35,075 nt of DNA from a virus. The notes under the pieces were generated by a model, which searched no databases, was not told where the DNA came from, and saw only the letters and a list, made by a program, of their open reading frames with translations. Position 1 is the stretch's first letter; each line of letters opens with the position of its first letter. The DNA is taken from positions 1 through 35,075 of the IMG/VR virus record IMGVR_UViG_3300017764_003348; one strand, 5' to 3'. This document shows, piece by piece, positions 2,423 to 35,075 of the stretch. Made by a program: the position numbers and the translations under genes.

Positions 2423-2436
2423 TGCAATCAATTGCA
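2423..2436. repeat. TGCA-N6-TGCA palindrome, copy 3
   Basis: TGCAATCAATTGCA in gene-free DNA, 55 bases before the tandem repeats upstream of the terminase. Same sequence as the copy at 20787. Confidence 0.8.
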
Positions 2437-2490
2437 CTGAGCAGGCGAAATCTTGGAAGTCAGAGCTTCTCGGTATTTTGCCCATCATGT

Positions 2491-2662: not shown

Positions 2663-2726
2663 AAAGATTTCAATAATGTTGGGTGATTTTCGATGTGAAA
2701 TGTGTTTGTCAATTAGGAGGTGTGAT

Positions 2727-3488
2727 ATGAGTGGTAAAGTGATCAGTAAAGGTAGTGATAGAGGTGGAAAGGTGGGTGTGGTTCGTCCTGCGGTGGAAAG
2801 CAAGAATGTACTGGAAATCGCGGGGGCGGTGGTTGGTCGGAAGTTTAAGAAGATAGATGCGTTGCCTGCGGAAGACAGGGTGTTGTTAATGGACATGTTC
2901 TATCAGGGAAAGGCTGTACCAGATATAGCGGCTAATCTGATAGACATGGGCCACTTTAAGGACGTGAAGAAGGTGACTCTGGAGCAGTATTTGTACAGAT
3001 TCAAATGGGAGGTTGTGGATAAGCAAGCGTTGATCCGTACCGAACAGTTGAAAGAGGATTCAAAGATAAAGCTGTTAGATAAGGTGTCGAAACAATATGA
3101 CGTAATGGAGGAGTTGGCTGAATTGATTGGGAGCCAAAAGTTAAGATTGGCGAAGATACTCAATCGGGAGAAAGACATGCCGATGTTGTTCAACTCTGCT
3201 AATGCTGAAATTAAGGTATTGGCTGGACTGTTGCAACAATATGCCACTCTGCAATTCGATTTGGGGTACATGAGAAAATCCATCTCTGGGATTACGAAAA
3301 TTACGGATGATATGGGTAGGACACTCACTGTTGAGTCGGAGGGACAGACCAGTGTAATTGTTGGGACTGAACAAAGAAGTAAGATTGAGGATGCGGCTCG
3401 GAGTTTCTTTGATATTTTGAATCGGAGAGCTTTGGGGAATCAGAATGGGAGGGAGGCAGAGATTATTGAGGGTGAGATCAATGATTAA
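2727..3488 (+). CDS. Probable terminase small subunit
   Basis: A 253-residue protein. The ATG at 2727 is chosen because TAGGAGG lies at 2714-2720; longer in-frame starts have no ribosome site. I see no signature that proves the family. Residues around 40-90 contain a helical stretch compatible with a helix-turn-helix, followed by a long charged helical region. The call rests mainly on context: the next gene is the terminase ATPase, whose ATG (3481) lies inside this gene's last codons, giving an 8-base overlap typical of terminase pairs. The small subunit binds the phage genome at the packaging site and hands it to the large subunit. The repeats at 2491-2662 just upstream could be its binding site. 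An unrelated DNA-binding protein is the alternative. Confidence 0.55.
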   Translation: MSGKVISKGSDRGGKVGVVRPAVESKNVLEIAGAVVGRKFKKIDALPAEDRVLLMDMFYQGKAVPDIAANLIDMGHFKDVKKVTLEQYLYRFKWEVVDKQALIRTEQLKEDSKIKLLDKVSKQYDVMEELAELIGSQKLRLAKILNREKDMPMLFNSANAEIKVLAGLLQQYATLQFDLGYMRKSISGITKITDDMGRTLTVESEGQTSVIVGTEQRSKIEDAARSFFDILNRRALGNQNGREAEIIEGEIND

Positions 3489-5790
3489 GGTTATTAAGAA
3501 TGGGGTGGTAAGACCATTAGGAAAGACCACGGATGCTCAAGATTCGGAGTCTTCTAATCATCATGCTTCAGATATGCATTTTGAGGAGTATGCTCGGTTG
3601 GGATTGCGGAGTTCTTCTGATATGTCGGATGAACCGGATGTGTCAGAGGATTTGTCGGACAAGCCTATCACTGAGGATTTGTTGGATGAGTGGGTGGTGG
3701 CTCCTAATTTGTCTGATGAGGTGTACCTTGAGGTGATTCAAAATGGGAGGATGTTTTTTGAGAGTGAGTTTGGGAATGAGATGGGGAGGGTGGTGAGTGA
3801 TTCGTTATCTGCAATGAGTGCGATGGGGTTGTTCTTGCAGGCTAAGTATATGACTGCAATGGTAAAGGATGCTATGCTCAATGCTATTGGGGAGAGGGCG
3901 AAGTATGTTGACAAAGAGAAAGGGAAGTGGTTGTTGCATCAACCGGCTTCGGTGAAGACGTTTATTGAAGATCGGTATTTTATGGATGCTAAGGGGGTGA
4001 TTTACCCTAAAGTGTTGGATTGTTTGATTGAGATTAACTCTGGGAACTATCAGGAGGTAGTTTTAACAGGGGCGATTGGGACAGCGAAAAGTACCATTGC
4101 TTTGTATAGCATTGCGTATCAGTTGTATTTGTTGTCCTGTTATGCTTCTCCACATACGTTGTTTGATTTGGACCCTAGTTCGGAGATCATTTTTATCTTC
4201 CAGAGCATCAATGCTCGGTTGGCAAAATCAGTGGACTATGATCGGTTTAGGAGTATGTTGGAGAAGTCTCCTTATTTCAAAGAGCAGTTTCCGTTTAATA
4301 AAGAAATTGCTTCAGAAATGAGGTTTCCGAATCGCATCATTGTGAAGCCTGTTTCTGGGTCTGAAACGGGTGCGATTGGTCAGAACGTCATTGGAGGGAT
4401 GATTGATGAGATGAACTTCATGGCGTTGGTGGAGGGAAGCAAGTCGAGTGCGGATGGTGGGATGTATGATCAGGCCATAGCTTTGTACAATACGATTGCT
4501 AGACGGAGAAAGTCACGGTTTATGGTGCAAGGGAAGTTGCCCGGATTGTTGTGCTTGGTGTCGTCGAAACGGTACCCCGGACAGTTTACCGATAAGAAAC
4601 AGGAGGAGGCAGAACGGGAAGTTGAGATGTTTGGGAAGAGTAGTATTTATGTGTACGACAAACGGACATGGGACATCAAGCCTAGAGGGAGTTTTTCTGG
4701 GAAGTGGTTTGATTTGTTTATTGGTGATGAGTCGCATAAGCCTAGAATTTTGGAGGAAGGGGAGGTGGTGAGCAAGGCGGATGCTCATTTGGTGATGAAG
4801 ATACCGGAGGAGTATCGGATGGAGTTTGAGATGGATATGATGAATGCGCTACGGGATGTGGCAGGAGTGAGTACGTTGGCGACCTATCCTTTTATCGTCA
4901 ATCGGGACAAGGTGATGGATGCTATGAGGAGGGTGAACATTCCGTTTACAAGGGACTGGGTGGACTTTCATTCGACGTTTGTGGAGTTTGAGATGGGGCA
5001 GGTGATCAACCCCTCCATTCCGAGGTTTATTCATGTGGATTTGGCGGTGAGTGGGGATTCGGCAGGATTGGTGATTGGACATGTTTGTGGATTCAAGATG
5101 ATTCAAAAGGATGTGAAGGAAACCGAAGGGGATTATATGCCTCAGATATGGGTAGATGGGGTGTTGGAGATTAAGCCGCCGAAAGGTGGGGAGATTATCT
5201 TTCATCGGATTCGTGAACTGATTTACATGATGTCGAAAGTAGGGTTGGGTATTCGGTGGGTGACGTTTGACCAGTATCAGAGTACGGATTCGATTCAGTT
5301 GTTACGACAATCAGGGTATGTGGTAGGACGGCAGAGTATGGATGCTACGATGACCCCGTATGATTTTTTGAAGAATGCGTTGTATGAGGATCGAATTAAC
5401 ATTCCGTACCATCCGAAATTGGTGACTGAGTTAATCTCACTGGAAAAGGATGTGAAGAGGGGGAAAATTGATCATCCCGTACATGGATGCGCTCGTGAAG
5501 ATACACCTGTAGACTGCTCAGATGGTGTGGCTAGGTCTATGGGGAGTTTGGCAAATGATTGGGAGGCAGGAATTTATCATAAGGTCAAATCATGGGATGA
5601 GGAGCATCAGAAAGTTTGTGATAAGTGGGCGTTTAGGCCGCATGTCACTAAGTACGTCACTGAGCTAGTGGAGGTTGAAATGGAAAATGGAGAAGTGTTC
5701 CAATTTACCCCTGACCACCCGTTTTTAATGATGAATGGGGAGTATGTGGCCGCAGAAGATTTGAAAGCAGGGGATGACCTTCGGGCTTGA
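3481..5790 (+). CDS. terL: Terminase large subunit, N-terminal part, ending in the N half of a split intein
   Basis: 769 residues from the ATG at 3481, which overlaps the upstream stop. The first ~65 residues are acidic and Ser/Asp rich. The ATPase has a Walker A 'GAIGTAKST' (G197-T205, Lys203) and a Walker B ending in Asp309-Glu310 ('GGMIDE'). The RNase H-like nuclease shows the first acidic motif 'HVDLAVSGD' (Asp520) and the second 'VTFDQYQST' (Asp597). The third motif is missing: after 'HPVHG' the protein becomes intein at Cys670 and stops at 5788-5790. The rest, starting SKDVADA, is encoded at 6510-6773. The full enzyme pumps DNA into proheads and cuts it, so it must be rebuilt by trans-splicing with the second polypeptide. 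Removing the intein joins 'DHPVHG' to 'SKDVADALAG', the normal motif III context. Confidence 0.93.
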   Translation: MIKVIKNGVVRPLGKTTDAQDSESSNHHASDMHFEEYARLGLRSSSDMSDEPDVSEDLSDKPITEDLLDEWVVAPNLSDEVYLEVIQNGRMFFESEFGNEMGRVVSDSLSAMSAMGLFLQAKYMTAMVKDAMLNAIGERAKYVDKEKGKWLLHQPASVKTFIEDRYFMDAKGVIYPKVLDCLIEINSGNYQEVVLTGAIGTAKSTIALYSIAYQLYLLSCYASPHTLFDLDPSSEIIFIFQSINARLAKSVDYDRFRSMLEKSPYFKEQFPFNKEIASEMRFPNRIIVKPVSGSETGAIGQNVIGGMIDEMNFMALVEGSKSSADGGMYDQAIALYNTIARRRKSRFMVQGKLPGLLCLVSSKRYPGQFTDKKQEEAEREVEMFGKSSIYVYDKRTWDIKPRGSFSGKWFDLFIGDESHKPRILEEGEVVSKADAHLVMKIPEEYRMEFEMDMMNALRDVAGVSTLATYPFIVNRDKVMDAMRRVNIPFTRDWVDFHSTFVEFEMGQVINPSIPRFIHVDLAVSGDSAGLVIGHVCGFKMIQKDVKETEGDYMPQIWVDGVLEIKPPKGGEIIFHRIRELIYMMSKVGLGIRWVTFDQYQSTDSIQLLRQSGYVVGRQSMDATMTPYDFLKNALYEDRINIPYHPKLVTELISLEKDVKRGKIDHPVHGCAREDTPVDCSDGVARSMGSLANDWEAGIYHKVKSWDEEHQKVCDKWAFRPHVTKYVTELVEVEMENGEVFQFTPDHPFLMMNGEYVAAEDLKAGDDLRA
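5488..5787 (+). mobile_element. Split intein, N half (in terminase)
   Basis: 100 residues from Cys670 to the stop. Block A starts Cys-Ala-Arg-Glu-Asp-Thr with a following Asp-Gly. Block B is 'FTPDHPFL' with the TxxH residues. It ends just after a 'LKAGDDL' segment, about where natural split inteins are broken. There is no endonuclease domain inside. Its partner is the 38-residue C half at 6510-6623. Confidence 0.9.
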
Positions 5791-5796
5791 TCTAGT

Positions 5797-5841
5797 GAGC
5801 ATCCTCCTGTATAGTAAGGATTACACACAAGAGGATGTCTC
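5797..5841 (+). promoter_or_regulatory. Hairpin covering the HNH endonuclease ribosome site
   Basis: CATCCTC (5800-5806) pairs exactly with GAGGATG (5831-5837), and the stem extends to GAG/CTC (5797-5799 and 5839-5841) with one bulge. The paired strand contains the GAGGA part of the ribosome site (AAGAGGA, 5829-5835) for the ATG at 5843. The loop holds TATAGTAA (5810-5817). Hairpins that hide the ribosome site of homing endonucleases are known in T4; a role here is inference. Confidence 0.55.
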
Positions 5842-5842
5842 A

Positions 5843-6520
5843 ATGAAGAAAGTTCCGTTAGGTGGGTTGATTGGGAAAGAGAAGTTTGCTTTGGTGGATG
5901 ATGAGGATGTGCAATTAGTTGCAAAGTATACTTGGTACTTGAGTAGTACAGGGTATGCAGTAACAATGATTCACATCTCTGGGAGTAAGAAGACTGGAAT
6001 TGTTCAGAAGGGAATCAGTATGCACCGATTGATTATGGGATTCCCTGAAGAACAGGTGGATCATATAAATCGGGATAAGTTAGATAATCAACGTAATAAT
6101 CTTCGATTAGCAAGTCATACGCAGAACTGTTGGAATGCTGATAAGCAACCATCAAATACTGGGTATCGTGGGGTGAAGAAAGAAAGTGAGAATGTATTTT
6201 GTGCTAGAGTGGGTCAAAAAGTCATTGGGTATTATCGAACCGCAGAGTTAGCGGCTCAAGCAAGGGATATTGAAGCTCTAAAAGTTCGTGGGAAGTTTGC
6301 TGTTTTGAATTTTGATCCTAATGAATTACCTGAGTCAGTGGAGTGCTTGCCACCACGAAATGTAGGAGAACGGACTTCTAAAGTGGTGGGGGTGTCTTAT
6401 TTGAAGGGGAGAAAAGCAGTAGCTAAATGGAGAGTGGTTAAGAACAAGAAGCATTATGGGTGGTTTGAAACTGAAGAATTGGCGATAGCTAAACGATTGG
6501 AGTTAGATCATGAGAGTTAA
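5843..6520 (+). CDS. Free-standing HNH homing endonuclease with AP2-like repeats
   Basis: 225 residues. The start at 5843 is preferred over the ATG at 5774 because AAGAGGA sits 7 bases upstream. The N-terminal third is a beta-rich region typical of HNH/AP2 phage endonucleases. The HNH core is the segment around 'VDHINRDKLDNQRNNLRLA', preceded by 'MHRLIMGF'. Two AP2-like DNA-binding units follow, one around 'NTGYRGVKK...FCARV' and one around 'SKVVGVSYLKGRKAVAKW'. The gene sits exactly between the two terminase halves and overlaps the second by 11 bases. It should cut terminase alleles without the insertion and so spread itself by repair. This matches the fractured-gene layout (split intein plus free-standing endonuclease) known from environmental phage sequences. 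Confidence 0.9.
   Translation: MKKVPLGGLIGKEKFALVDDEDVQLVAKYTWYLSSTGYAVTMIHISGSKKTGIVQKGISMHRLIMGFPEEQVDHINRDKLDNQRNNLRLASHTQNCWNADKQPSNTGYRGVKKESENVFCARVGQKVIGYYRTAELAAQARDIEALKVRGKFAVLNFDPNELPESVECLPPRNVGERTSKVVGVSYLKGRKAVAKWRVVKNKKHYGWFETEELAIAKRLELDHES
5910..5923. repeat. TGCA-N6-TGCA palindrome, copy 4
   Basis: TGCAATTAGTTGCA inside the HNH gene, read as Val-Gln-Leu-Val-Ala. Identical to copies at 1525 (non-coding) and 7667. Confidence 0.8.
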
Positions 6521-16389: not shown

Positions 16390-16398
16390 GAGATGAAC

Positions 16399-18249
16399 AT
16401 GAAAATTGTAGAGCCGCAAGTTTTTATAGTAGGTGAGTCTGAATTGAATACGCAAGGTTTGAACGAATTGTTGACATCGTTTGGAACCCCGGAATGGTTT
16501 ACTGATAGTTCTAATTCAGCAGAAGTGTTAGTTGAAGTAGCGGGGAAACTCTGCTTTGATCCAGAAACAGAAATACTAACCAAACGTGGTTGGGTTATGT
16601 TTCCAGAGTTGAATGAAGGGGAGGAGGTTTTTACACTGAATAAACAAACCCAGATTGTGGAATGGCAAGTACCATCTAAGGTACATACCCATGATTACAA
16701 TGATGAACTGGTATGCTTTGAGGGGCGTGACCTAGACTTCAAGGTGACTAAAGATCATAGGTTTTGGGCTAGGGAGCCTGATAAAGAGTGGTCGTTTTAT
16801 GTAGCCGGTGAATCAGTGGAGTCAAGGTTAGACTTCAAGGTAGGGGGCTGTCATTGGAAGGGATACTTCCCTTCGCAGGTTAAGCTTGAAGGGTGTAAGT
16901 TTCTACAAAAGCAGTCTAATCATACTGGTAAAGATTGTGGTGTTAGGTGGCAAGTAACTGCACTGCCAAAAGAATTGTCTCAGGAACAGATGGAGTCCTT
17001 TGCTTACCTGATTGCGTACTTTGTTACTGAGGGGACTATCAATGAGGCAGGAACTAATAAGAGGGCTACGGTATATGGAACGCCTCATGTTCCAGAAGTT
17101 CGCAAACTGTGTGCTGATTTGGGGGTGACGATTGGAACATATCGTGATAAACGTAATGGGGTTGAACGTGCTTGTATAAACAGTAGGCAGATCGCTGATT
17201 ATCTTGAAAAGTATTGCAATCATGGGTCAAGCATAAAGAAATTCCCACGATGGGTACTTGACCTTCCACGAAGTGTTCTGGAGAAGATATGGTCAATACT
17301 TGTAGCTACTGATGGGCATAGGTATGAAAACGGGACTGAGGTATTAGTCACCGTTTCCCATGAGTTAGCGGGACAAGCGCAGGAGATACTGACCAAAATA
17401 GGTTTTCACGGGTCAATCTCTAGTAGTATTGGGGAAAACTATCCAGTACTTACTGTTAGAAAAAAGATACGTGATGTAGCACAGGTAAATAACCAAAAAT
17501 CTAAGATGTATTTGGAAAAGTACCAAGGAACAGTGCATTGCGTTACAACGCAGAATGGTGTTGTGTATGTCCGTCGTAATGGGAAGTGCCATTGGTCAGG
17601 TAATTGTTATATGTCCTTTGATACTTCGTTGAATGAAAACCTGACTGCTACAGGGACGAGAAATAATTTTACGTACATTCAAGAAGGGTTGATTGCTACA
17701 GGGCATGGGTCAGTACTAGAACATGTTACTGTGTCATTAGCTTTTAAGGATGTCAGTAGAATCTTTGCAAATGAATTGGTACGTCACAGGGTAGGTGCAG
17801 CCTACAGTCAAACCAGTGGCAGATTTGTACGTAATTCTGAATTGAATTTTTGGGTGCCTTCATGTATTAGGGAGAATTTGGAATTAGCTGCATTGTTTGA
17901 TGAAGCAGTGAAGCATCAGGAAGACATATTGCAGAGAATGGTGGATGTCTCTGGGATTGGAAGATTGAAAGGAGTTGATGCCTTTCAGAAGAAGAAGGAA
18001 CTGACCTCAGCATTTAGACGTATTGTGGGGAATGGTGTAGCAACGAATATCCTTGCTACGTATAACCACAGAGCATTACGTAATATGATTGAGCAAAGGA
18101 CTTCACGCCACGCAGAGGAGGAGATACGGTTAGTTTTCAACAAGGTGTATAGTTTGGTCGAATCCAAGTACCCGGCGTTTTATGATGACGCTACAGGGGT
18201 GGATGTTAATGGGTTGTTTGAAATCACGTTCAAGTCAAAGAAGGTGTAA
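16399..18249 (+). CDS. thyX: Flavin-dependent thymidylate synthase ThyX, interrupted by an intein
   Basis: 616 residues including a 351-residue intein; the spliced enzyme would be 265. The ATG at 16399 has TAGGAG six bases upstream. After the intein come 'GSVLEHVTVS' and 'RHRVGAAYSQTSGRF' (R462-H463-R464), the ThyX signature region; the spacing to the second Ser is one residue longer than the classical RHR-x7-S. 'RALRNMIEQR' near the C-terminus matches the conserved dUMP/FAD-binding end. It makes dTMP from dUMP using methylenetetrahydrofolate, FAD and NADPH, downstream of the dCMP deaminase. The intein lies between 'AGKL' and 'CYMSFD', ahead of all these motifs, so no activity is expected before splicing. 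Confidence 0.93.
   Translation: MKIVEPQVFIVGESELNTQGLNELLTSFGTPEWFTDSSNSAEVLVEVAGKLCFDPETEILTKRGWVMFPELNEGEEVFTLNKQTQIVEWQVPSKVHTHDYNDELVCFEGRDLDFKVTKDHRFWAREPDKEWSFYVAGESVESRLDFKVGGCHWKGYFPSQVKLEGCKFLQKQSNHTGKDCGVRWQVTALPKELSQEQMESFAYLIAYFVTEGTINEAGTNKRATVYGTPHVPEVRKLCADLGVTIGTYRDKRNGVERACINSRQIADYLEKYCNHGSSIKKFPRWVLDLPRSVLEKIWSILVATDGHRYENGTEVLVTVSHELAGQAQEILTKIGFHGSISSSIGENYPVLTVRKKIRDVAQVNNQKSKMYLEKYQGTVHCVTTQNGVVYVRRNGKCHWSGNCYMSFDTSLNENLTATGTRNNFTYIQEGLIATGHGSVLEHVTVSLAFKDVSRIFANELVRHRVGAAYSQTSGRFVRNSELNFWVPSCIRENLELAALFDEAVKHQEDILQRMVDVSGIGRLKGVDAFQKKKELTSAFRRIVGNGVATNILATYNHRALRNMIEQRTSRHAEEEIRLVFNKVYSLVESKYPAFYDDATGVDVNGLFEITFKSKKV
16552..17604 (+). mobile_element. ThyX intein with LAGLIDADG-type endonuclease
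   Basis: 351 residues from Cys52 ('CFDPETEIL', block A) to 'WSGN', followed by Cys as +1. Block B is 'VTKDHRFW'. Two DOD/LAGLIDADG motifs are visible, 'LIAYFVTEGTI' and 'ILVATDGHRY'. The end 'VYVRRNGKCHWSGN' resembles the end of the portal intein; both have Gly rather than His before the last Asn. Confidence 0.9.
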
Positions 18250-23983: not shown

Positions 23984-24718
23984 ATGAGACTTTGGCATAC
24001 TGAAAAAGATAGTTTTGATGCAGTGAAAGTTAGATGCTTTCAATCGCATCCTCCGTTGATACTCAATGATGGGTTGCAGATTTATGGAGGATCGTGTTCA
24101 AGTCCTGTAGTAACAGATGCAGAAGTCTATGTGGGGTTTGATTACTCCATGAAGAAATCCCCGCTGTCCTATCCTTGGGAGTCAGGGGAGTCGTTTCTAT
24201 ACCCGATACAGGATATGGGTGCGCCTAGTGATTGGCCTTCCTTTGCTAAACTTGTTGAATGGTTGGCTGTGCAATTAACTGCAAAACGGAAGGTGCATAT
24301 CGGATGTATTGGAGGGCATGGAAGGACTGGATTGGTCTTGGCAGCCCTTGTTAAGACTATGATGAATGAGGAGGATGCAATAGCTTATGTAAGGAAGAAC
24401 TACTGTGTGAAAGCAGTAGAAAGTAGCAGCCAAGTAGATTTCTTGGCACATAGGTATGGGATTAAGAAGGTAGCACCCGCTAAGGAGCATCATGGGAGTG
24501 TTGCGGTGCAACCGCATCCACATGGTATAGCAAGAAAGGAGCCTGAGAGAAAGGGGATTGGAAGTAGTGGAGGGGTTGTAAGGGACTGGGTGAACGAGCC
24601 AGTATCTAAGAAGTTTTCGGTAGAAGGAGCCAAGCTTAAAGAAACAAAGTTTAGTGGGAAAGTGAAGTCAATCTGGGGACACAAATCACCATTTGGGAGT
24701 GTCGGAGATGGTAGTTAA
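23984..24718 (+). CDS. PTP/dual-specificity-type phosphatase (second copy)
   Basis: 244 residues. The catalytic loop 'IGCIGGHGRTGLVLAALV' gives Cys-x5-Arg-Thr, the same plan as the protein at 22182; 'YPIQDMGAPSDWPSF' before it provides an Asp that could be the general acid. The C-terminal ~90 residues are basic and Ser/Gly/Lys rich and look unstructured. It contains the TGCA-N6-TGCA site at 24270 as Val-Gln-Leu-Thr-Ala. Overlaps the next gene by 11 bases. Confidence 0.82.
   Translation: MRLWHTEKDSFDAVKVRCFQSHPPLILNDGLQIYGGSCSSPVVTDAEVYVGFDYSMKKSPLSYPWESGESFLYPIQDMGAPSDWPSFAKLVEWLAVQLTAKRKVHIGCIGGHGRTGLVLAALVKTMMNEEDAIAYVRKNYCVKAVESSSQVDFLAHRYGIKKVAPAKEHHGSVAVQPHPHGIARKEPERKGIGSSGGVVRDWVNEPVSKKFSVEGAKLKETKFSGKVKSIWGHKSPFGSVGDGS
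24270..24283. repeat. TGCA-N6-TGCA palindrome, copy 10
   Basis: TGCAATTAACTGCA in the second phosphatase gene; identical to the copy in the spacer at 18415. Confidence 0.8.
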
Positions 24719-26130: not shown

Positions 26131-26170
26131 TCGCCCACATTATGATCAGTAGTTAATGAGGATTGTGAAG

Positions 26171-29100
26171 ATGAGTATTGTGATTTGGTCTAGTGCTGAA
26201 AAAACGAACTTTAACCAGACTATTCAAACAGTCTTGTCTCAGTTGCAGGTGAGGTACACGTTATGTCAGGATACGGCGAAGTTTCCGCCTGTAAGTAATG
26301 GAGACATCGTATTGTCTTGTGGGTCGAAAGCCTTGGCGGTGTTGCAGGCTTTGGGGGTTGTTCCGAAGAACAGGAGTATTGCTTCCCTGAGAGGTAAGCA
26401 ATTTAGTCATTTTGGGGCGAAGGTGTTTGTAACGTATGATCCGATGATAGTGAATCGTGATTATGGGAGAATGCCGGATATTCAGTGGGATACGCAATTA
26501 GCTGTAAGACTGGCGGTGACGGGTAGCTTAGAGCCTGTGTATGGTGAGTACAGGTATGTAGAATCGTTGCATGAATTGATTGAGAAAGTTGAGGAAAAGT
26601 ACAAGAAGTCAGGTAAGCCTGTAGAGGTAGCGTGTGATTTAGAAACAAAAGGGTTGGTGCCATATAGTGATAATGTTTGGATTATTACCTGTCAGTTTAC
26701 TGTAGAGAAAGGCAAGTCTGATGTCTTGTATTTTGAGTATGGAGAAAAGCCAGTAGCTCCGTTGCCTTGGAAGAATGAGGAGGAATGGACATACTGGGAG
26801 GGGTTATGGGTGCAGTTGGATTGGATTTTTAAGTCTCCGATGGTCTCTTTGAGAGGGGCTAATTTCAAGTTTGATATGACTTGGTTGAAGTTGAATTGGG
26901 GTATTAGTGTAACGAATTTCAAATTCGATACGATGTTAGTAGGGTCTTTGCTTAATGAAAATCGTAGTAATTCGTTGAAGCTACATGCGAAGATAATGAC
27001 ACAGATGGGTGGTTATGAAGATGGAATGGATAAGTATGATTTTGGGTGCTTAGAAAGGGTGCCAAGGGATGAGTTGTTGCTGTATGCTGGTGGGGACACT
27101 GATGTAACGTATCAGGTTTCTCAGGCAATGAAGGAGGAGATACTTCGTGATAAAGTCTTGTCTAATTTTTATGTGAAGTTAGTGCATCCTGCATCACTGG
27201 CTTTTGAAAAGTTGGAGCAGACAGGAGTATTGGTAGATCAGGAGTATTACTACCAGTTGCAGCAAGAATTGCAGGTAGAGATTGCTAGGATTCAAGGATC
27301 GATGTTGGAGTGTTTGCCGAATAAGCTACGGATTAAGTACAAGGATGATATAGCAGGTGCTTTGAAGGAAGGTAAGTCACCGTTTAAGCCAAAGGTGTTA
27401 TTGGATTTTTTGTTTACCAGTAATGGCTTGAATTTGAAACCTAAGATGTTCACGGCTAAGACGAAAGCCCCGTCTACTGCTATGGATCATTTGATGATGT
27501 TTGGGGATGATGAAGTTGCAGCTAATTTCATTGGATTGTTTAAGGAGTTGGGGTCAGCCTCAAAAACGCTTTCGACTTTTGTAGTTGGGTTCCTCAAGCA
27601 TCTGAGAAAAGATGGTAGGTTACATGCCACTTACATGCTTCATAGAGGGGATTATGGGGATGATGATTCAGGAACCACCTGTTTGGCTCCTACGACACCA
27701 GTTTCTACCAGTATGGGTGTTTTGTTTGCTAAGGATGTTGAAGTAGGGATGAAGGTGCTTACTCATAATGGGAACTGGATGGAGGTGGAGGATAAGATAG
27801 ATAATGGGATTAAGGTGGTGTATAGAGTTGTTTTGGATAGTGGGCATCATGTAACTTGCACAGGTAATCATCCGTTTTATACTGAGGATGGTTGGGTGTG
27901 GGCGAATGAGTTAGAAGAAGGGGATAAAGTATGGGTGTACGGGGATTCAGAAGTTTGGAGGGTGGTAGACCTAGATCAAAGGTATGAAGTTTCTAATTGG
28001 GGTAGGGTAAGGCATGTTATGAGTAGCAGGATATTGTCGCCTACTAAAAAGGGTAAATGGGGTCACTTGAAAGTGGAACTTGGGCATAGAGAAAATCGCT
28101 TGTCCATTGGGGTGCATAGGCTAGTAGCAATGGCTTTTGTTTCTAATCTGTACGGTGGAGATCAGGTAAGGCATTTAGATGGTAAGGGTTGGAATAACGT
28201 AGCTTGGAATCTTGAGTGGGGGACTAATTCTGATAATCGTAAGGATGCGGTTAAGCATGGGACTATAAGGAGGACTGATTCTGATTATGCTAAGTTAGAT
28301 TGGGATATGGTTGCCTATATTCGGTCAGTTGAATGGGGTCTAGGTTCTGCTGCTAAAGTAGCAGTGGAATTAGGGGTGTCTAGGAGGTTAGTGAGTGATG
28401 TTCGTAATGGGATAAGGTGGGTGAGTAAGCCTATAGAGAAGTTTGATTATGGGTTTACTTTAGCTACTGTAGTATCTGTTGAAGAATTGGGAACTATGAG
28501 GACTTGGGGGTTGCAGGTTAAGGGAGATCATTCTCATGTAACGGCAGGGATTGTTACACATAATACGGGAAGAACAAGTGCGAAAGACCCCGCTATCCAG
28601 ACATTGCCGAAGCACTCCAAATGGGCGAAGAGGTTAAGAAAGGCGTTTATTGCACCGCCCGGAAAGGTGATATTGAATTGCGTTGATGCTATGACCAGAG
28701 TGCTTACGTCTGATTTAAGGTGGGTGAAAGCTGGTGATGTGCAGGTGGGGGATTCTCTTGTTGGGTTTGATGAGGAGTTACCTGCTAAATGGACTGAGAG
28801 GTGTCTTCGTGAGGCTATAGTTACTCATGTAGCTACTAAGAAATCGCCAAGGATAAGAATTACTTTTGAAAGTGGAAGAGTTGTTACTGTTAGTAGTGAT
28901 CATAGGTGGTTAGGTTGTCGGGTTGTAGATAAGGGGAACAGACCGTTGGAATTTATAAGGTCTGATAAATTAGAAGCAAGAAGGCATAAGGTAAGGGTTG
29001 TTTTAGAGCCTTGGGAGGATGTTGTGCAGGATTATGATCTTGGGTATTTGTCTGGGGTATTAGATGGGGAAGGGTACATTAATCAGACAACTGGGACAAC

Positions 29101-30961
29101 ATTAGGGGTAGCTCAGGTAGAGGGGATTGTCTGGGATGAAATACTACGTTTGATGGTGAAGTTTGGGTTTCAGGGTGCTGTTGATACTGTGGATAGAACT
29201 CATATAAAGGAGTCCTATAAAATTTTGTTGCAGTATCGTATCTCTAATATGGCTACTGTGATGAGGTTGTTGGGTATTGTTAGGCCAAAAAGATTGTTAT
29301 GTAAGGCTCCTTGGGTGGGGAAAAATATGCCTAGAATTGGTTTTGATAAGGTAATGAGAGTACAAGTAATTCCGGTGGGGGAGGTAGTTAGTATTACTAC
29401 CTCTACACGTACTTTTGTTGCTGAGGGGTTGGCTTCACATAATTGTGATTATTCTCAGGGAGAGCTACGCATTTGTGCAGTAGTAGCTAATGAGCCAACG
29501 ATGATTAAGGCATATCAGGATGGCATGGATTTACATGCTCTGACTGCTGCTCAGTTAAGTGGTTATGAGTATGATGAGTTTATGGCTCTTCCAGATGACA
29601 TACGGGAAGAGTTAAGGTACGGTGGAAAGGCAGGTAATTTCGGACTTTGTATCGCAGAGGGGCAACTTGTTTTGACTGATTCAGGGTTGATCCCTATTGA
29701 ACAGATTATGTGTTGCCATAAAGTATGGGATGGGGTATCATTTGTTAATCATGATGGTTTGATTTATAAAGGGGTTAAGCATGTCATCACCTATCAAGGT
29801 CTTACCGCAACTGAAGATCATGAAGTGTGGGATTCCAGTGGGAAAACCGTTTCCCTTAGGAGAGCTTCATCCGAAGGTCGTACCCTTGCAAGAACTGAAA
29901 TTGAGGGTAAGCCAGTTGCAGTTAATTTCACTGAAAATAGATTTAGACACAATTCGGAAGGAGGGTGGGTACAGGTTAGTGGATGGTTTGTGTCTGCACT
30001 GCAATACTGTAAGGACGTATTACTTGGACAATTTGCTGGCTGGAAAGACAACAAAATGTCGGTGTCAGAGAAATCAAAAGTACCACGATCCGAGAGCAGA
30101 GACTTTAGGGATGCGGTACGATGCAATGATGCAGAGGTGCTACAGGGACACACATGTTTCAAGTCACAGGTACAAGGGACGTGGTATCATTGTGGAGTTT
30201 TCTTCAAGAGAGGACTTCGTTACTTGGGCCTTAGCCAAGTACCCGGATTCAAGTTTTCAAAAACTCGATTTCGACAGGATAGACAACAACGGGAATTACT
30301 CCAAGACCAATTTGAGGCTGGTTACTCGGTCAGTAAATCTCAAGAACAAGTGAAGGTTTATGATCTTTTGAACGCTGGTCCAAATCATCGCTTTACTTGT
30401 AGTGGGGTTTTGGTGAGTAATTGCTACGGTATGCAGCATAGGGGGTTTAAGGAGTACGCCTTTCAAACGTATGGGGTTAAAATGACAGATGAGGAGGCGT
30501 ACATAAAAAGGGAGAAATTCTTTGAATTGTATAGTATGCTTCCGGGGTGGCATGAGAAGTATAAGAGGTATGCTCACCAGTATCAGATGGTGAGATCACC
30601 GTTAGGTAGGATTAGGCATTTGCCGTTAATTGCATCGAAGGACAGTGATATGGTGGCACAGGCAGAGAGACAGGCTGTCAATGCCCCAATTCAATCCTGC
30701 TTATCTGATATGATGCAGCTTGCTATGGTTTACATTCAAAGGGAGTACGGAGATCAGATTCAAATGTTCATGATGACTCATGATTCTTTGAGTTCGTATG
30801 TTCCTGAAGATGAAGCTGAGCTTTGGGGTAGGAGGCTGAAGGAGATTATGGAGAATCTACCTCTTGCTAGGGATTTTAATTGGAACAGTCCATTGAAATT
30901 CTATGTAGATGCTGAGTCAGGGCCAAATTTGGCTGAACTGAAAAAGTTGAAGAATTTGTAA
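26171..30961 (+). CDS. Family A DNA polymerase with three inteins
   Basis: 1596 residues; removal of three inteins leaves 788. The ATG at 26171 is preferred over 26156 for its GAGG. The 3'-5' exonuclease shows 'CDLETKG' (Asp156, Glu158), 'GANFKFDMTWL' and 'YAGGDTDVTY'. The polymerase has 'TGRTSAKDPAIQTLPK', motif A 'CDYSQGELR' (catalytic Asp1093), motif B 'RYGGKAGNFGL' + 'CYGM' (Arg1149, Lys1153, Tyr1419), and motif C 'MMTHDSLSS' (His1537, Asp1538). No 5'-3' exonuclease domain. It copies the phage genome. The inteins sit before 'TGR', directly before motif A, and within motif B, so no polymerase activity is expected before splicing. An unrelated frame of the third intein encodes an HNH endonuclease (29781-30353). 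Confidence 0.95.
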   Translation: MSIVIWSSAEKTNFNQTIQTVLSQLQVRYTLCQDTAKFPPVSNGDIVLSCGSKALAVLQALGVVPKNRSIASLRGKQFSHFGAKVFVTYDPMIVNRDYGRMPDIQWDTQLAVRLAVTGSLEPVYGEYRYVESLHELIEKVEEKYKKSGKPVEVACDLETKGLVPYSDNVWIITCQFTVEKGKSDVLYFEYGEKPVAPLPWKNEEEWTYWEGLWVQLDWIFKSPMVSLRGANFKFDMTWLKLNWGISVTNFKFDTMLVGSLLNENRSNSLKLHAKIMTQMGGYEDGMDKYDFGCLERVPRDELLLYAGGDTDVTYQVSQAMKEEILRDKVLSNFYVKLVHPASLAFEKLEQTGVLVDQEYYYQLQQELQVEIARIQGSMLECLPNKLRIKYKDDIAGALKEGKSPFKPKVLLDFLFTSNGLNLKPKMFTAKTKAPSTAMDHLMMFGDDEVAANFIGLFKELGSASKTLSTFVVGFLKHLRKDGRLHATYMLHRGDYGDDDSGTTCLAPTTPVSTSMGVLFAKDVEVGMKVLTHNGNWMEVEDKIDNGIKVVYRVVLDSGHHVTCTGNHPFYTEDGWVWANELEEGDKVWVYGDSEVWRVVDLDQRYEVSNWGRVRHVMSSRILSPTKKGKWGHLKVELGHRENRLSIGVHRLVAMAFVSNLYGGDQVRHLDGKGWNNVAWNLEWGTNSDNRKDAVKHGTIRRTDSDYAKLDWDMVAYIRSVEWGLGSAAKVAVELGVSRRLVSDVRNGIRWVSKPIEKFDYGFTLATVVSVEELGTMRTWGLQVKGDHSHVTAGIVTHNTGRTSAKDPAIQTLPKHSKWAKRLRKAFIAPPGKVILNCVDAMTRVLTSDLRWVKAGDVQVGDSLVGFDEELPAKWTERCLREAIVTHVATKKSPRIRITFESGRVVTVSSDHRWLGCRVVDKGNRPLEFIRSDKLEARRHKVRVVLEPWEDVVQDYDLGYLSGVLDGEGYINQTTGTTLGVAQVEGIVWDEILRLMVKFGFQGAVDTVDRTHIKESYKILLQYRISNMATVMRLLGIVRPKRLLCKAPWVGKNMPRIGFDKVMRVQVIPVGEVVSITTSTRTFVAEGLASHNCDYSQGELRICAVVANEPTMIKAYQDGMDLHALTAAQLSGYEYDEFMALPDDIREELRYGGKAGNFGLCIAEGQLVLTDSGLIPIEQIMCCHKVWDGVSFVNHDGLIYKGVKHVITYQGLTATEDHEVWDSSGKTVSLRRASSEGRTLARTEIEGKPVAVNFTENRFRHNSEGGWVQVSGWFVSALQYCKDVLLGQFAGWKDNKMSVSEKSKVPRSESRDFRDAVRCNDAEVLQGHTCFKSQVQGTWYHCGVFFKRGLRYLGLSQVPGFKFSKTRFRQDRQQRELLQDQFEAGYSVSKSQEQVKVYDLLNAGPNHRFTCSGVLVSNCYGMQHRGFKEYAFQTYGVKMTDEEAYIKREKFFELYSMLPGWHEKYKRYAHQYQMVRSPLGRIRHLPLIASKDSDMVAQAERQAVNAPIQSCLSDMMQLAMVYIQREYGDQIQMFMMTHDSLSSYVPEDEAELWGRRLKEIMENLPLARDFNWNSPLKFYVDAESGPNLAELKKLKNL
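27680..28564 (+). mobile_element. Polymerase intein 1, with HNH/NUMOD4-type endonuclease
   Basis: 295 residues, Cys504 ('CLAPTTPVSTSMG') to His-Asn798, +1 Thr. Block B is 'VTCTGNHPFY', block G 'AGIVTHN'. In the middle is an HNH unit of the NUMOD4 + HNH_3 kind: 'YEVSNWGRVRH', 'GVHRLVAMAFVSN', 'VRHLDGKGWNNVAWNLEW'. An additional helix-turn-helix-like segment 'AAKVAVELGVSRRLVSDV' follows. In-frame HNH domains are rarer in inteins than LAGLIDADG ones. Confidence 0.9.
28679..29443 (+). mobile_element. Polymerase intein 2, LAGLIDADG-type, at motif A
   Basis: 255 residues, Cys837 ('CVDAMTRVL') to His-Asn1091, +1 Cys of 'CDYSQGELR'. Block B 'VSSDHRWLG', block G 'AEGLASHN'. One clear LAGLIDADG motif, 'LGYLSGVLDGEGYI'; a second is not clear, so the endonuclease may be small or degenerate. 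Confidence 0.88.
29648..30421 (+). mobile_element. Polymerase intein 3, carrying an out-of-frame HNH gene, in motif B
   Basis: 258 residues, Cys1160 ('CIAEGQLVL') to Ser-Asn1417, +1 Cys of 'CYGM'. Block B is 'TATEDHEVW', block F/G 'VKVYDLLNAGPNHRF' to 'GVLVSN'. The middle (about 29950-30350) has no recognisable domain in this frame, but reads as an HNH endonuclease in the +1 frame. A mini-intein seems to have taken up an HNH gene without losing its own frame. Confidence 0.88.
29781..30353 (+). CDS. HNH endonuclease in the +1 frame of polymerase intein 3
   Basis: The open frame has up to 190 residues from the ATG at 29781 (AAAGGGG upstream), offset +1 to the polymerase. The recognisable domain starts near 29950: a Cys knuckle 'CLHCNTVRTYYLDNLLAGK' with 'CRC', then 'LGMRYDAMMQRCYRD', 'YKGRGIIVEF', 'EDFVTWALAKYP', and the end 'DFDRIDNNGNYSKTNLRLVT'. 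This is a common phage HNH family. The first ~55 residues look like out-of-frame intein, so translation may begin internally: AAGGAGG (29958-29964) precedes the GTG at 29979. No other stop occurs in either frame over this segment. A +1 frameshift is another route. Confidence 0.8.
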   Translation: MSSPIKVLPQLKIMKCGIPVGKPFPLGELHPKVVPLQELKLRVSQLQLISLKIDLDTIRKEGGYRLVDGLCLHCNTVRTYYLDNLLAGKTTKCRCQRNQKYHDPRAETLGMRYDAMMQRCYRDTHVSSHRYKGRGIIVEFSSREDFVTWALAKYPDSSFQKLDFDRIDNNGNYSKTNLRLVTRSVNLKNK

Positions 30962-31011: not shown

Positions 31012-33663
31012 ATGTCTGATGAATCGGTTAGCCAAGGTTCTGCGTACACCCTGATGACGGGGGATGTTCGTAAGGCGGATACGGCAGCACTTATTACAAA
31101 TGGAGCAGATGCATTCCCAGAAGATTCATTTACTGGGATGTATTGGACTGGTGGTGCCGCTGGTGGGGATGGTGTTTACGTACTAGAGCCGACCTATACC
31201 CCCGGAGTACTGGCTACTCTGGCATCCCAAAATAATATGTTGGGTAAGTGCATTGAAGCAATGGAAGTAAACATTGATGGCACTGGTCATGTCATTAAAT
31301 TGGTTACAGGTGAAGAGGAAGATAAGGTTGAGAAGACTCGACTAGAGAATTTCTTTAAGGAGCCATACCCCGGTAAGTCTATGGTGGAGATTCGTAGGGC
31401 GCTACGTAGGGACATTGAAACAACGGGTAATGGGTACTTGGAAGTGATTCGTAATCTGGCCGATGAGATAGTCATGCTCAACTGGTTGGATGTACAGGAT
31501 ATGAGGTTGCTTCGATTAGGGGATGTTGTAGAAGTACAGAAGGTGCTAGATAGGGATGGTCAGGAGATGACTGTAACTATTAGAACTAGGGAACGTAGAT
31601 ACGTGCAGTTAGTTAATGGGAAGTCTATCTATTTCAAAGAGTTTGGAGCGGGTCGTGATATTAACCGGGTGACAGGTGAGTGGATAAAGGATGGTGAAAG
31701 ATTGCCGATTCACTTGAGGGGTAGTGAGGTGATTCATTTTGTTGGAGTTAAGGAACCGAAAACTCCGTATGGAAGCCCTAGATGGATTAGTCAATTGCCT
31801 TCAGTCTTAGGGTCACGTAAAGCTGAAGAGCATAATTTGGAATTTTTTGATGGAGGTGGGATACCTCCAGTATTGGTCATTGTGCAGGGTGGTACTTTGG
31901 GTAGGGAAGTTAAGGAAGACTTGAAACAGCATTTGTCAGGTGTAGGTGGAAGGCATCGGGCAGCAGTTGTGGAAGCCATTTCAACCTCTGGTTCTTTGGA
32001 GTCAGCAGGTACAGTACAGGTACGGGTTGAGAGATTCGGTTGCACGGATGACAAGACAGAGGTATTGACTAAGAAGGGGTGGCAGTTTATTCAAGATTGG
32101 GATGGGTCTCAGGTGGGTACTGTGGTTGGTGGTTACTTGGAGTACCAGAATCCCCTTCAGTATCATGTATATGATTATGAAGGTGATATGATTCATATTG
32201 AAGGAGGTGCTACCGAGTTTATGGTGACTCCAAATCATAGGGTTTGGTATCAGCAGCCACGCGATAAGGCTATGCGTTTTGAATTCGCATATAGCTCTGT
32301 AGCTCGTAGTAATCTGGTTGTACCTGTTGCCCCTGTTAATGGAGCAGTCTCAGAGTTCAATTTTTATTTTGAGATTGTAGGAAGAAATTTTCCGCAGGAT
32401 GTTTGGTTGGATTTTCTTGGTATGTTTATTTCTGATGGATCAACGAATGAACATGAAAGTAATCCAAATACGATAACGATAACCGTTAAGAAGTCACGGA
32501 AGAAGGAGTTTATTGAATCCTTTATGAAGGAGATAGCTGAGGCTTCTGGGGCTAAGTATACCGAACATGACTACGATGATGGGTATACACGGTATGCTTT
32601 GTACCACTGTGAATTAAGGGGATGGTTACGGATGGAGGTTGGTGCTAATGCTAAACAGAAACGCATCCCTTCTCAATTCCTTGAATTGAATCAGGTGCAA
32701 AGTGAGCGTCTGCTTCAATCATTGATGCAGGGTGACGGCCACTATAATGGTGAGAATGGGAAGCATGGGTGGACTTTCACTACCTCTAGTGTTGGGTTGG
32801 CAGATGATGTGCAACTACTTGCACTTAGAGCAGGGTACAGATCAGTACTGACTCCGGTGAAGGGTAGGGAGTCAGAGTACTGTATCTCTATTACTCCGAG
32901 AACTTTTGCTCATGTAACTAAGGGGAAGTGTCCTGCTTGGGGGGTTGTACCCTACGTAGGTAAGGTGTACTGCTTTACGATGCAGTCTGGGGTATTTATT
33001 ACCCGTAGAAATGGGAAGGTTTGTATTACTGGTAATTCTGAACGGCAGCAGGATGCGATGTTCCAGAATTACGATAAGTCCTGTGGTGAGAATATCCGTA
33101 CTTCGTTTCGATTGCCAGAAATGTTCATTGGTATGTCTGGGGATTTGAATTATGCTACTGCATATACAGCGTATATGGTGGCAGAAGCTCAAGTATTTTT
33201 CCCAGAACGTGATGAATTTGATACGCTGATTAACACTCGTATTGTTAGGGGTATGGGGGTTAAGAAGTATGTGTTTAGCTCATTGCCTGTAACATTGGTA
33301 GATGTGCAGAATCAGTTAAAGGCTTTGGAGTATGTACGTGAAGATCAGACTGTAGCCAAGGAAGAGATTGTTGAGGTATTGAACAATATTACGGGTCTTT
33401 CGTTGAATTACACGGAACCACCGCCTCCCCCGGAGCTTACGGAAACAGGTGCCCCTACCTCTCCTACCTCAGCCGGAGGAAAAACGCCCAAAAAGCCTCT
33501 CAAGCAGGTAAAACAGCCAATAAACGCGCAATCTACAGGCACAGGAGCGAGTCCTCCGTATCGGGTGGGGAAACAGGAGTTGGAGGATTTGGATTTGGTT
33601 ATGGATATTTCGGGGATTGAGGAACTTTGTGATTGTGCTGATCACTTAATGGGTGAAGTATGA
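31012..33663 (+). CDS. Phage portal protein with an intein
   Basis: 883 residues including a 332-residue intein; the extein is 551. ATG follows TTGGAG. Extein motifs: 'LEVIRNLADEIVMLNWLDV', 'YGSPRWISQLPSVLGSRKAEE', 'GGIPPVLVIV' and, after the intein, 'SFRLPEMFIGMSGD...NYATAYTAYMVAE', all typical of portal proteins of the PBSX/HK97-like kind. The C-terminal tail is Pro/Lys rich. The portal forms the dodecameric DNA gate at the head vertex, working with the terminase. The intein lies after 'VERFG', inside the helical core. The stop overlaps the next start (ATGA). Confidence 0.93.
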   Translation: MSDESVSQGSAYTLMTGDVRKADTAALITNGADAFPEDSFTGMYWTGGAAGGDGVYVLEPTYTPGVLATLASQNNMLGKCIEAMEVNIDGTGHVIKLVTGEEEDKVEKTRLENFFKEPYPGKSMVEIRRALRRDIETTGNGYLEVIRNLADEIVMLNWLDVQDMRLLRLGDVVEVQKVLDRDGQEMTVTIRTRERRYVQLVNGKSIYFKEFGAGRDINRVTGEWIKDGERLPIHLRGSEVIHFVGVKEPKTPYGSPRWISQLPSVLGSRKAEEHNLEFFDGGGIPPVLVIVQGGTLGREVKEDLKQHLSGVGGRHRAAVVEAISTSGSLESAGTVQVRVERFGCTDDKTEVLTKKGWQFIQDWDGSQVGTVVGGYLEYQNPLQYHVYDYEGDMIHIEGGATEFMVTPNHRVWYQQPRDKAMRFEFAYSSVARSNLVVPVAPVNGAVSEFNFYFEIVGRNFPQDVWLDFLGMFISDGSTNEHESNPNTITITVKKSRKKEFIESFMKEIAEASGAKYTEHDYDDGYTRYALYHCELRGWLRMEVGANAKQKRIPSQFLELNQVQSERLLQSLMQGDGHYNGENGKHGWTFTTSSVGLADDVQLLALRAGYRSVLTPVKGRESEYCISITPRTFAHVTKGKCPAWGVVPYVGKVYCFTMQSGVFITRRNGKVCITGNSERQQDAMFQNYDKSCGENIRTSFRLPEMFIGMSGDLNYATAYTAYMVAEAQVFFPERDEFDTLINTRIVRGMGVKKYVFSSLPVTLVDVQNQLKALEYVREDQTVAKEEIVEVLNNITGLSLNYTEPPPPPELTETGAPTSPTSAGGKTPKKPLKQVKQPINAQSTGTGASPPYRVGKQELEDLDLVMDISGIEELCDCADHLMGEV
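32041..33036 (+). mobile_element. Portal intein with LAGLIDADG-type endonuclease
   Basis: 332 residues, Cys344 ('CTDDKTEVL') to 'ITGN', +1 Ser. Block B 'MVTPNHRVWY'. Endonuclease motifs 'WLDFLGMFISDGSTN' and 'LLQSLMQGDGHYN'. The end 'VFITRRNGKVCITGN' resembles the ThyX intein; both end Gly-Asn. Confidence 0.9.
32810..32823. repeat. TGCA-N6-TGCA palindrome, copy 11
   Basis: TGCAACTACTTGCA inside the portal intein, read as Val-Gln-Leu-Leu-Ala. Confidence 0.7.
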
Positions 33664-35075
33664 TTAAGGCGGAGACGTTTCGGTATCTTGAAGTCACCTT
33701 GGCAAACAAGTTAGTGAAGGCTGTGAATGAGGTAACGAAGCCTTTATACACTAAGATTATGAGTAGCATTGCTGATGGTGATTATGATTTGGCAAAGGAA
33801 ATGGTAGGTAGATTATCGTTGGCGAGTATCTATTTTAAGATGGAGCCTACGTTAATCTACCATACGCATTTGGCAATGTTGTTCGGAGCATCGAGAGTAA
33901 CGGAGCATCCGGGTACTTCAGTGGTGGGTCTTGGGTTTGAAAAGATGGTTGTGCAGCAAATAGTACAGGGTTTCATGGGTGTGTTTACGGTTGGGCAAAC
34001 CTACTTGCAGGATAAGCTGTTGCAACTAATTGCAGAGATTGAGGAGGGTGAGAGGCAAGTTCAGAAGGCAGCTAAGAAGCCTAGAATTTTGAAAGATTTT
34101 CAATCCCACATGGATAGGGAGGGAAAGTCGTTTCTTAATGTGGTGTCCTCTCTACATACGTCTAGGGTGTCTGCATACGGGTTTACTGCTGAGGCGGAAG
34201 TATTAGGGTTGAAGGAGTATCAAATATCTGAGCAGTTAGATTCTCGTACTTGTCCCGTTTGCCGTAAGATGCACGGTAAAAAGTTTCCTGTTCGTGAGGC
34301 TCGTAATTTTTTAAATGTTGTAGTTAGGATGACTGATAATGAAGGATTGAAGTTAATGCAGCCTTGGCCTAAACATGATAAGGAATCATTAACTGCTTTG
34401 GATGGAATGACTCCAGAGGAGATGGTTGCTAAGCATTGGCATGTACCTCCGTTCCATCCGCATCCGGTATCTGAAGACACAGAATTTCTTGGGAAGGGTG
34501 GGTGGAAGCTGGTCAAAGAAGCTAAAGTAGGTGATTTGGCGTTCTCTTTGAATCCTGATACTTGTAGGGTGGAGTGGGTTCCAGTAGTAGGAGTGGTTGT
34601 CGCTGGTAAGGCTCCTAATGGTCGCATGGTGCATTTTTTATCACAGAATGCTGATCTTTTAGTAACTGAATACCATGAGCAACCGTACTTGCAGTATCTT
34701 AATAAGGGGTCTCAGTTGGCTATTAAGCCTGCTAGAGAATTGCTTGCTTACTCTAAGGTAACTATCCCAAGAGGGGGTGATTGGGTAGGTGGTGATTGTG
34801 GATTGTCTACTGAGATGGTGCAATTACTTGCATTATGGATTTCCGATGGGTCAGTGGTTGTTAAAGGCCCAAATTCGTATTATGTGACTATAGCCACTAG
34901 GAAGTATTCTAATTTGGCTAAAGAGTTATTAGAGGCTGTAACAGGGAAGACTGCTTACATACGGAATTCTAGTGTTGAGTGTAATGATACGGAGCTTGGT
35001 AAGTATCTACATGATGTAGTAGGTACTGGGTGTTTAGGTAAGAGGATACCAGAAGTAATTATGGGAGCTAGTCAG
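33660..35075 (+). CDS. Head morphogenesis (Mu gpF/SPP1 gp7-like) protein with an intein, 3' partial
   Basis: At least 472 residues, running off the window; starts at ATGA overlapping the portal stop. The extein ends with the family core: 'ISEQLDSRTCPVCRKMHGKKF' and 'HVPPFHPH', where family members continue Cys-Arg-Cys. Here an intein begins at residue 269 (Pro). The protein is an internal capsid/minor head protein that joins the portal during assembly. Gene order portal, then minor head protein, is standard. The C-extein is outside the window. Confidence 0.85.
   Translation, partial: MIKAETFRYLEVTLANKLVKAVNEVTKPLYTKIMSSIADGDYDLAKEMVGRLSLASIYFKMEPTLIYHTHLAMLFGASRVTEHPGTSVVGLGFEKMVVQQIVQGFMGVFTVGQTYLQDKLLQLIAEIEEGERQVQKAAKKPRILKDFQSHMDREGKSFLNVVSSLHTSRVSAYGFTAEAEVLGLKEYQISEQLDSRTCPVCRKMHGKKFPVREARNFLNVVVRMTDNEGLKLMQPWPKHDKESLTALDGMTPEEMVAKHWHVPPFHPHPVSEDTEFLGKGGWKLVKEAKVGDLAFSLNPDTCRVEWVPVVGVVVAGKAPNGRMVHFLSQNADLLVTEYHEQPYLQYLNKGSQLAIKPARELLAYSKVTIPRGGDWVGGDCGLSTEMVQLLALWISDGSVVVKGPNSYYVTIATRKYSNLAKELLEAVTGKTAYIRNSSVECNDTELGKYLHDVVGTGCLGKRIPEVIMGASQ
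34021..34034. repeat. TGCA-N6-TGCA palindrome, copy 12
   Basis: TGCAACTAATTGCA in the head protein extein, read as Leu-Gln-Leu-Ile-Ala. It is the exact reverse complement of the 1525/5910/7667 sequence. Confidence 0.75.
34464..35075 (+). mobile_element. Head-protein intein starting with Pro (partial)
   Basis: At least 204 residues. Block A reads Pro-Val-Ser-Glu-Asp-Thr-Glu-Phe-Leu, matching the other inteins position by position except for Pro in place of Cys1. Block B is 'LLVTEYHEQ' (TxxH). A LAGLIDADG motif 'LLALWISDGSV' is present. The C-terminal blocks are beyond the window. Confidence 0.8.
34819..34832. repeat. TGCA-N6-TGCA palindrome, copy 13
   Basis: TGCAATTACTTGCA inside the head-protein intein, read as Val-Gln-Leu-Leu-Ala within the LAGLIDADG segment. 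Confidence 0.7.

Follow-up and report, generated by a model that had tools for sequence, protein, structure and literature searches.

The subject of this report is a 35,075-nucleotide stretch of viral DNA (IMG/VR record IMGVR_UViG_3300017764_003348, positions 1 to 35,075; hereafter the window), and specifically the third of three inteins in its family A DNA polymerase (PolA) gene. The polymerase is encoded by a single unbroken open reading frame (ORF) that matches DNA_pol_A (PF00476, E = 8.7e-48) and its 3'-5' exonuclease (PF01612, E = 4.1e-15). An earlier note on this DNA proposed that an HNH endonuclease gene lies out of frame inside intein 3, and the frame map, a family match and many relatives confirm that arrangement. 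The features concerned, all on the plus strand, are as follows, with frames given relative to that of the polymerase.

26156 to 30961, plus strand: PolA gene, one ORF with three inteins
29648 to 30421, plus strand: intein 3 at PolA motif B (NFGL/C...SN/CYGM), 258 amino acids, polymerase frame
29648 to 29917, plus strand: Hint-N half (Cys1, block B TATEDH), polymerase frame
29768 to 29774, plus strand: putative Shine-Dalgarno (SD) sequence AAAGGGG, 6 nt before ATG 29781, within Hint codons K-G
29781 to 30353, plus strand: nested HNH endonuclease gene, +1 frame, 190 amino acids, stop codon TGA at 30351-30353
29928 to 30350, plus strand: structured part of the HNH protein, a Zn-ribbon (CxxC...CxC) followed by a DRIDN-type HNH domain
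29934 to 30337, plus strand: dual-coding stretch, HNH in the +1 frame and a variable linker in the polymerase frame
30338 to 30421, plus strand: Hint-C half (VYDLLNAGPNHRF...SN), polymerase frame

Intein 3, which is recognised from its sequence, from homologues at the same site and from an AlphaFold2 model, opens with a Cys at 29648 and closes with an Asn at 30419-30421 that is followed by the Cys +1. Cys1, the TxxH of block B, a C-terminal Asn followed by Cys/Ser/Thr, and a conserved extein site are all present, and the Hint catalytic set (C1, T55, H58 and N258) is invariant across the intein alignment. The Hint-N half is conserved among relatives and is modelled with block values of the predicted local distance difference test (pLDDT) of 88-98 over residues 1-90; the corresponding values for Hint-C, residues 231-258, are 90-96. 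This model superimposes on the Mtu RecA mini-intein with a Z of 16.8 and a root-mean-square deviation (rmsd) of 2.0 over 115 amino acids (VIA-align), its best structural entries are all Hint/hedgehog, and Foldseek pairs it with NpuDnaE at a probability of 1.00. From the catalytic residues and the predicted fold, we infer that intein 3 would splice. A canonical intein carries its endonuclease in frame with the Hint halves, whereas in the window the HNH is in the +1 frame.

Across intein 3 the polymerase frame has no stop codon and the +2 frame has 28, while the +1 frame is interrupted only at 29673, 29688 and 29760, and then at 30351, 30369 and 30414. The polymerase and +1 frames are consequently both open for 196 codons (29763-30350); the doubly open stretch described in the earlier note is real, although its length of about 135 codons was an underestimate. 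When read from ATG 29781, the +1 ORF matches the HNH endonuclease family phrog_374 (E = 4.8e-21, residues 68-190) over the Zn-ribbon and HNH core. It also matches 602 phage records by tblastn, with homology beginning near 29934. The window HNH is recognised by PHROGs and goes unrecognised by Pfam and NCBIfam. In the polymerase frame, both ends of the intein are Hint and the middle has no family match, in agreement with the note's description of an open frame lacking a recognisable domain. The HNH frame is intact to its stop just before Hint-C, as in a stand-alone gene.

Structure prediction separates the two frames in the same way. The HNH-frame AlphaFold2 model has block pLDDT values of 84-98 over residues 51-190, whereas the polymerase-frame linker (residues 91-230) is mostly below 60. 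Model residues 100-190, the HNH core, find their closest structural match in PacI, an HNH restriction enzyme (Z 6.5, rmsd 2.4, 77 amino acids; VIA-align); as a sign of the beta-beta-alpha-metal core fold this match is modest and falls under the tool's caution level. The HNH family alignment contains 17 invariant or near-invariant residues, with Cys, Arg, Asp and Asn among the invariant ones, and the window copy fits it throughout. Thus, one stretch of DNA is predicted to specify two folds, HNH and Hint.

Relatives were sought by scanning IMG/VR twice with alignment seeds, since single-sequence scans of viral contigs gave nothing usable, and by hidden Markov model searches in all three frames around each Hint-N match. 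Nested copies served to train the HNH model. For the intein scans the seed was Hint and not the HNH frame, so they do not favour out-of-frame cases. Among 121 Hint-N matches, a count in which near-identical copies are included and the record of the window appears twice, the HNH is in the +1 frame in 105, in the +2 frame in 8 and in frame in none; the remaining 8 are HNH-less (125-188 amino acids), and complete inteins without an HNH match are too short to conceal another endonuclease. These phage and IMG/VR matches reduce to 91 distinct HNH-bearing DNA sequences (83 in +1 and 8 in +2). Bacterial genome contigs, an independent sample, supply another 55 out-of-frame cases, of which 52 are in +1 and 3 are in +2; the HNH of one relative (L232) was counted twice and accounts for a fourth +2 row. 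The sole apparent in-frame HNH, in L238, was rejected: its Hint is broken by a frameshift, and in the second piece the HNH is once more in +1. Wherever an HNH was found in an intact relative, it was out of frame.

Inteins at the same site in public phages fall into three types, namely HNH-less mini-inteins (Ruminococcus phages, 140 amino acids), inteins carrying a +1 HNH (Gardnerella AB1, Streptococcus Javan255 and others, 309 amino acids) and inteins carrying a +2 HNH (Pseudomonas MR14, Vibrio 97.13, Sodalis SO-1, Dhillonvirus and Salmonella Jerseyvirus). The record of Jerseyvirus Ent2 annotates the intein only as 'encoding splicing domains', and in SO-1 the nested +2 ORF is gp39, annotated as an HNH endonuclease but labelled a type I self-splicing intron. 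In the annotation of Kagunavirus KMB36 (L248), HNH genes at 1-83 and 3375-3471 flank the intein-bearing polA, besides the hidden one. Salmonella phage SS3e (L251) has its intein-bearing polA annotated as three hypothetical ORFs, with a matched stretch 2 bp longer than in relatives; either the gene is broken or this old record contains a sequencing error.

Most of these inteins occupy PolA motif B, as judged from flanks read by eye. Others occur at PolA motif A (L048, L049 and L232), at a second PolA site (GGK..VEN/C.QA.AR; L078, L084, L186, L214, L237 and L240) and at a helicase-like motif (GRG.R..PGK.D/C..LDF; L052, L056, L063, L089, L091, L105, L141, L176 and L179). The last group are apparent SF2 helicases, a label taken from the motif-like flanks, and their C-exteins matched no helicase Pfam model. 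Pfam recognised DNA_pol_A in 33 of 61 C-exteins, and phmmer with the window extein assigned a host gene to only 24 of the 91 sequences because the polymerases are too diverged. One PolA ORF, in L078, holds two inteins (861-1811 and 2181-3089), each with an out-of-frame HNH of a different lineage, and the near-identical contigs L079 and L082 likewise have two inteins in the PolA ORF.

In a tree of HNH proteins the +2 copies form a single clade with support of 100, the main +1 copies group together, and three +1 copies from the second PolA site fall among free-standing HNHs, many deep branches being weakly supported. These groupings indicate that the nested HNH was probably captured at least two or three times. 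In a Streptococcus phage (L006), a stop at 3231-3233 follows soon after the HNH domain of a long-type nested ORF, and the downstream residues are still conserved, which suggests that this C-terminal extension is dispensable or newly lost.

Substitutions among relatives, a comparison that the earlier note had recommended, reveal which frame is under selection. In equal-length pairs, changes at polymerase-frame positions 1/2/3 number 40/19/86 in the Hint-N zone and 191/110/72 in the HNH zone, where the third position of the HNH frame is highest. A +2 pair gives 14/57/27 in its HNH zone, with the peak again at the HNH third position. Similarly, the variable sites of seven Jerseyvirus-type polymerases are distributed 75/53/318 in the N-extein and 6/36/14 in the HNH overlap. 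This reversal of codon position implies that selection acts on the HNH frame within the overlap and on the polymerase frame beyond it. Of the 91 nested copies, 90 have no polymerase-frame stop over the HNH, as against only 1 of 65 free-standing homologues, whose means are 14.9 stops in one register and 6.6 in the other, the larger value belonging to the register that +1 copies keep open. By these measures on aligned sequences, the HNH gene is shown to be selected in its own frame among relatives and kept stop-free in the polymerase frame. A free-standing HNH with an open second frame (L169) was set aside as a GC-rich chance ORF whose translation has no Hint.

The HNH protein could be made by internal initiation or by a frameshift, as the earlier note recognised, and the SD data favour the former. 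An HNH-frame ATG preceded by an SD of -8 kcal/mol or better is found in 43 of 91 inteins, as compared with 3 of 91 for ATGs in other frames (Mann-Whitney over ATGs, p = 2e-7). Two SD positions recur. At one, AAGGAGGT is formed from Hint codons K-E-V and the ATG lies in the next Y-D/E codons; at the other, AAAGGAG arises from K-G and the ATG lies twelve bases further upstream. The window is of the second type, and about 10 relatives have an ATG at its Hint position together with AAGGAG or AAGGGG. Because strong SDs often accompany HNH-frame ATGs and are rare at other-frame ATGs, internal initiation is the likely mechanism and is better supported than a frameshift.

The intein is also variably present. 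A similar polymerase is present in 404 phage records, and in 151 of these the match spans 80% or more of the intein-bearing gene. Salmonella phage S119 (L249) has a 2202-bp polA with an exact empty site, whereas intein-bearing polA is 3099 bp; the flanks of the empty site are 86% and 100% identical over 120 nt to those of close Jerseyviruses. Presence and absence at an exact site, seen here in +2 relatives, is the pattern expected of a homing element. We consider a model in which frame 0 encodes the polymerase plus a Hint-type intein in motif B. The amino acids of the linker between the Hint halves would be of little consequence, and the halves would splice the whole intein out. The linker DNA is a complete HNH gene in the +1 frame, and it would be translated separately from an internal start, in the window most likely ATG 29781 behind AAAGGGG, both within Hint coding sequence. 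The HNH protein would then cut intein-free polA at motif B, and repair would copy the intein in. An intein with a homing-endonuclease gene nested out of frame, separately translated and homing at polA motif B, is in our judgement a highly probable description of this locus.

Several rival explanations can be weighed against this model. The overlap could have been a chance ORF, or an assembly error in which two compensating indels displaced the HNH from the intein frame. When the window HNH peptide is recoded with window codon usage, a mean of 19.9 polymerase-frame stops appears, and none of 20,000 such recodings is stop-free. Some two-fold pyrimidine codons of the nested HNH would give a polymerase-frame stop if they ended in T; 13 of 13 such codons end in C, in comparison with 8 of 70 in equivalent contexts in PolA (Fisher p = 4e-10). 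The match to phrog_374 and the placement of the HNH stop likewise speak against chance. Two compensating read errors are excluded because the layout recurs in many independent sequences, named isolates and metagenomes alike, and relatives keep the HNH frame open rather than accumulating stops in it. The overlap is neither chance nor an assembly error, and this explanation, which we give practically no weight, was dropped. A decayed relic without a product is very improbable. One relative (L007) does retain only an N-terminal remnant, and L006 has its stop downstream of the HNH domain, but purifying selection acts across relatives and the window copy itself has neither stop nor frameshift.

Ribosomes might instead shift frame near the end of Hint-N to yield a fused Hint-N/HNH protein. 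The two frames are open ahead of the HNH domain, so that a shift there would be unblocked, and neither L075 nor L014 has a good ATG and SD. In many relatives, however (for example L004, L020, L024, L047 and L066), the SD-bearing ATG follows an HNH-frame stop by only 6-9 nt, which would confine any shift to the short stretch past that stop. Moreover, SD enrichment is specific to HNH-frame ATGs, and one clade would need a shift of +1 but the other a shift of -1. We regard such a fusion as improbable. About equally unlikely is that the nested HNH is expressed but is not the homing enzyme of the intein, serving the phage in another role (nickase, recombination or defence) or cutting elsewhere. Free-standing homologues in many phages lend this idea some support; yet three separate HNH tree groups share one position between the Hint halves, both mini-inteins and empty sites were found, and the intein is met repeatedly at conserved sites in PolA and in helicase-like genes, as homing predicts.

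Some observations weigh against the model of a separately translated homing endonuclease. The window SD is moderate (-7.3 kcal/mol) and the nearest relative, L014, has no ATG at the window's start position, so the exact start in the window is uncertain, ATG 29781 being most likely. Across 34 independent pairs, one of them the window and L014 (61% HNH identity; 47/34/77), substitutions at HNH-frame positions 1/2/3 are 1298/1018/2236 and 153/115/263; these counts agree with selection on the HNH frame, but their codons were aligned in the tested frame, a procedure that favours that frame. The equal-length pairs and the Jerseyvirus sites are free of the alignment bias. In addition, an unrelated chain scores Z 6.2 alongside the modest PacI match, and Foldseek alone finds no significant match in PDB for the HNH model. 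The DRIDN-type HNH family lacks the classical first His, and activity is assumed from the family.

The arrangement has partial precedents. PI-SceI-type inteins resemble intein 3 in having Hint at a conserved polymerase site, an endonuclease between blocks B and F, and presence/absence polymorphism, but their LAGLIDADG or HNH is in frame, whereas the HNH of intein 3 forms a gene of its own, with start and stop, in another frame. Group I introns can hold nested endonuclease ORFs, such as I-HmuI in a phage DNA polymerase gene, and thus also place an endonuclease gene with its own start in a mobile element within such a gene. In contrast, removal here would occur at the protein level through Hint and the host frame is read through, such that the DNA is dual-coding. 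In 2009, Dassa et al. reportedly described split inteins whose halves are separated by a free-standing endonuclease gene; in intein 3 a stand-alone gene again lies between Hint-N and Hint-C, but the intein is contiguous and the gene overlaps its linker in another frame. Sodalis phage SO-1 gp39 has the same architecture in the +2 frame and an HNH annotation, differing in its intron label, in a record without analysis.

The ShiLan domain and the Pacc40 gp60 insert are out-of-frame HNH genes in mycobacteriophage methylase genes (PMC11855218). They share with intein 3 a zinc-finger HNH gene placed out of frame within a phage gene, a stop-free host frame, a patchy distribution and a need for internal initiation. 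Their authors found no splicing domain and no Shine-Dalgarno sequence, the host protein is thought to retain the insert, and the host gene is non-essential, whereas intein 3 has complete Hint halves, an essential polymerase as host and an SD-bearing start in many members. A passing remark mentions a putative intein-encoded, out-of-frame HNH gene in a brucellaphage terminase (PMC4422536). We found no paper on an out-of-frame endonuclease in a genuine intein in open-access PMC full texts, the literature that the search covered, and novelty is provisional for that reason. The earlier view that this is not a described standard layout therefore stands in that literature, although the ShiLan and SO-1 cases and the brucellaphage remark mean that it was not wholly unheralded.

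The same PolA gene offers an internal contrast in two further inteins:

27680 to 28564, plus strand: intein 1 of PolA, with an HNH in frame (family matches to NUMOD4 and HNH_3)
28679 to 29443, plus strand: intein 2 of PolA, with an in-frame LAGLIDADG-like stretch (LAGLIDADG_3, E = 0.23, weak; boundaries by sequence)

One gene thus holds three inteins, with an in-frame NUMOD4/HNH, a weak in-frame LAGLIDADG-like stretch and an out-of-frame HNH, respectively. Downstream, the portal protein gene (31012-33663) has an apparent intein with an in-frame LAGLIDADG_3 (E = 4e-7), and a Mu-F-like head protein gene (33660-35075) has another that is cut by the window end, which makes the PolA/portal/head region unusually intein-rich. 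Elsewhere in the window, two separate ORFs (16393-18249 and 23984-24718) match thymidylate synthase families; the first, at 618 amino acids, is longer than expected and may contain an intein. A free-standing HNH endonuclease at 5774-6520 (phrog_99, E = 8.5e-33) belongs to another subfamily than the nested HNH.

Inteins are taught as elements that bear their endonuclease as an in-frame domain. We think it likely that a clade of 'entangled' inteins exists in which the HNH is always an overlapping gene in another frame, started from an SD within Hint codons, captured at least two to three times, and resident in essential replication genes. In such inteins, endonuclease synthesis would be uncoupled from splicing, and the selfish gene would be protected from loss, since an indel in the endonuclease would in most cases disrupt the essential gene as well. 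A whole clade would thereby depart from the in-frame rule through overlapping genes in polymerase and helicase-like genes. Carried by more than 100 phage and bacterial sequences, this two-genes-in-one layout looks like a widespread and largely overlooked intein strategy, one that sits in well-studied Salmonella Jersey-type phages where only splicing domains are annotated. It would account for inteins whose middle is unlike an endonuclease yet too long for a mini-intein, and it adds a hidden gene to these loci. It would also represent a natural case of a selfish gene entangled with an essential gene, an idea used in synthetic biology, and the laboratory phages that carry it would be easy systems for studying internal initiation, splicing with a scrambled linker, and homing.

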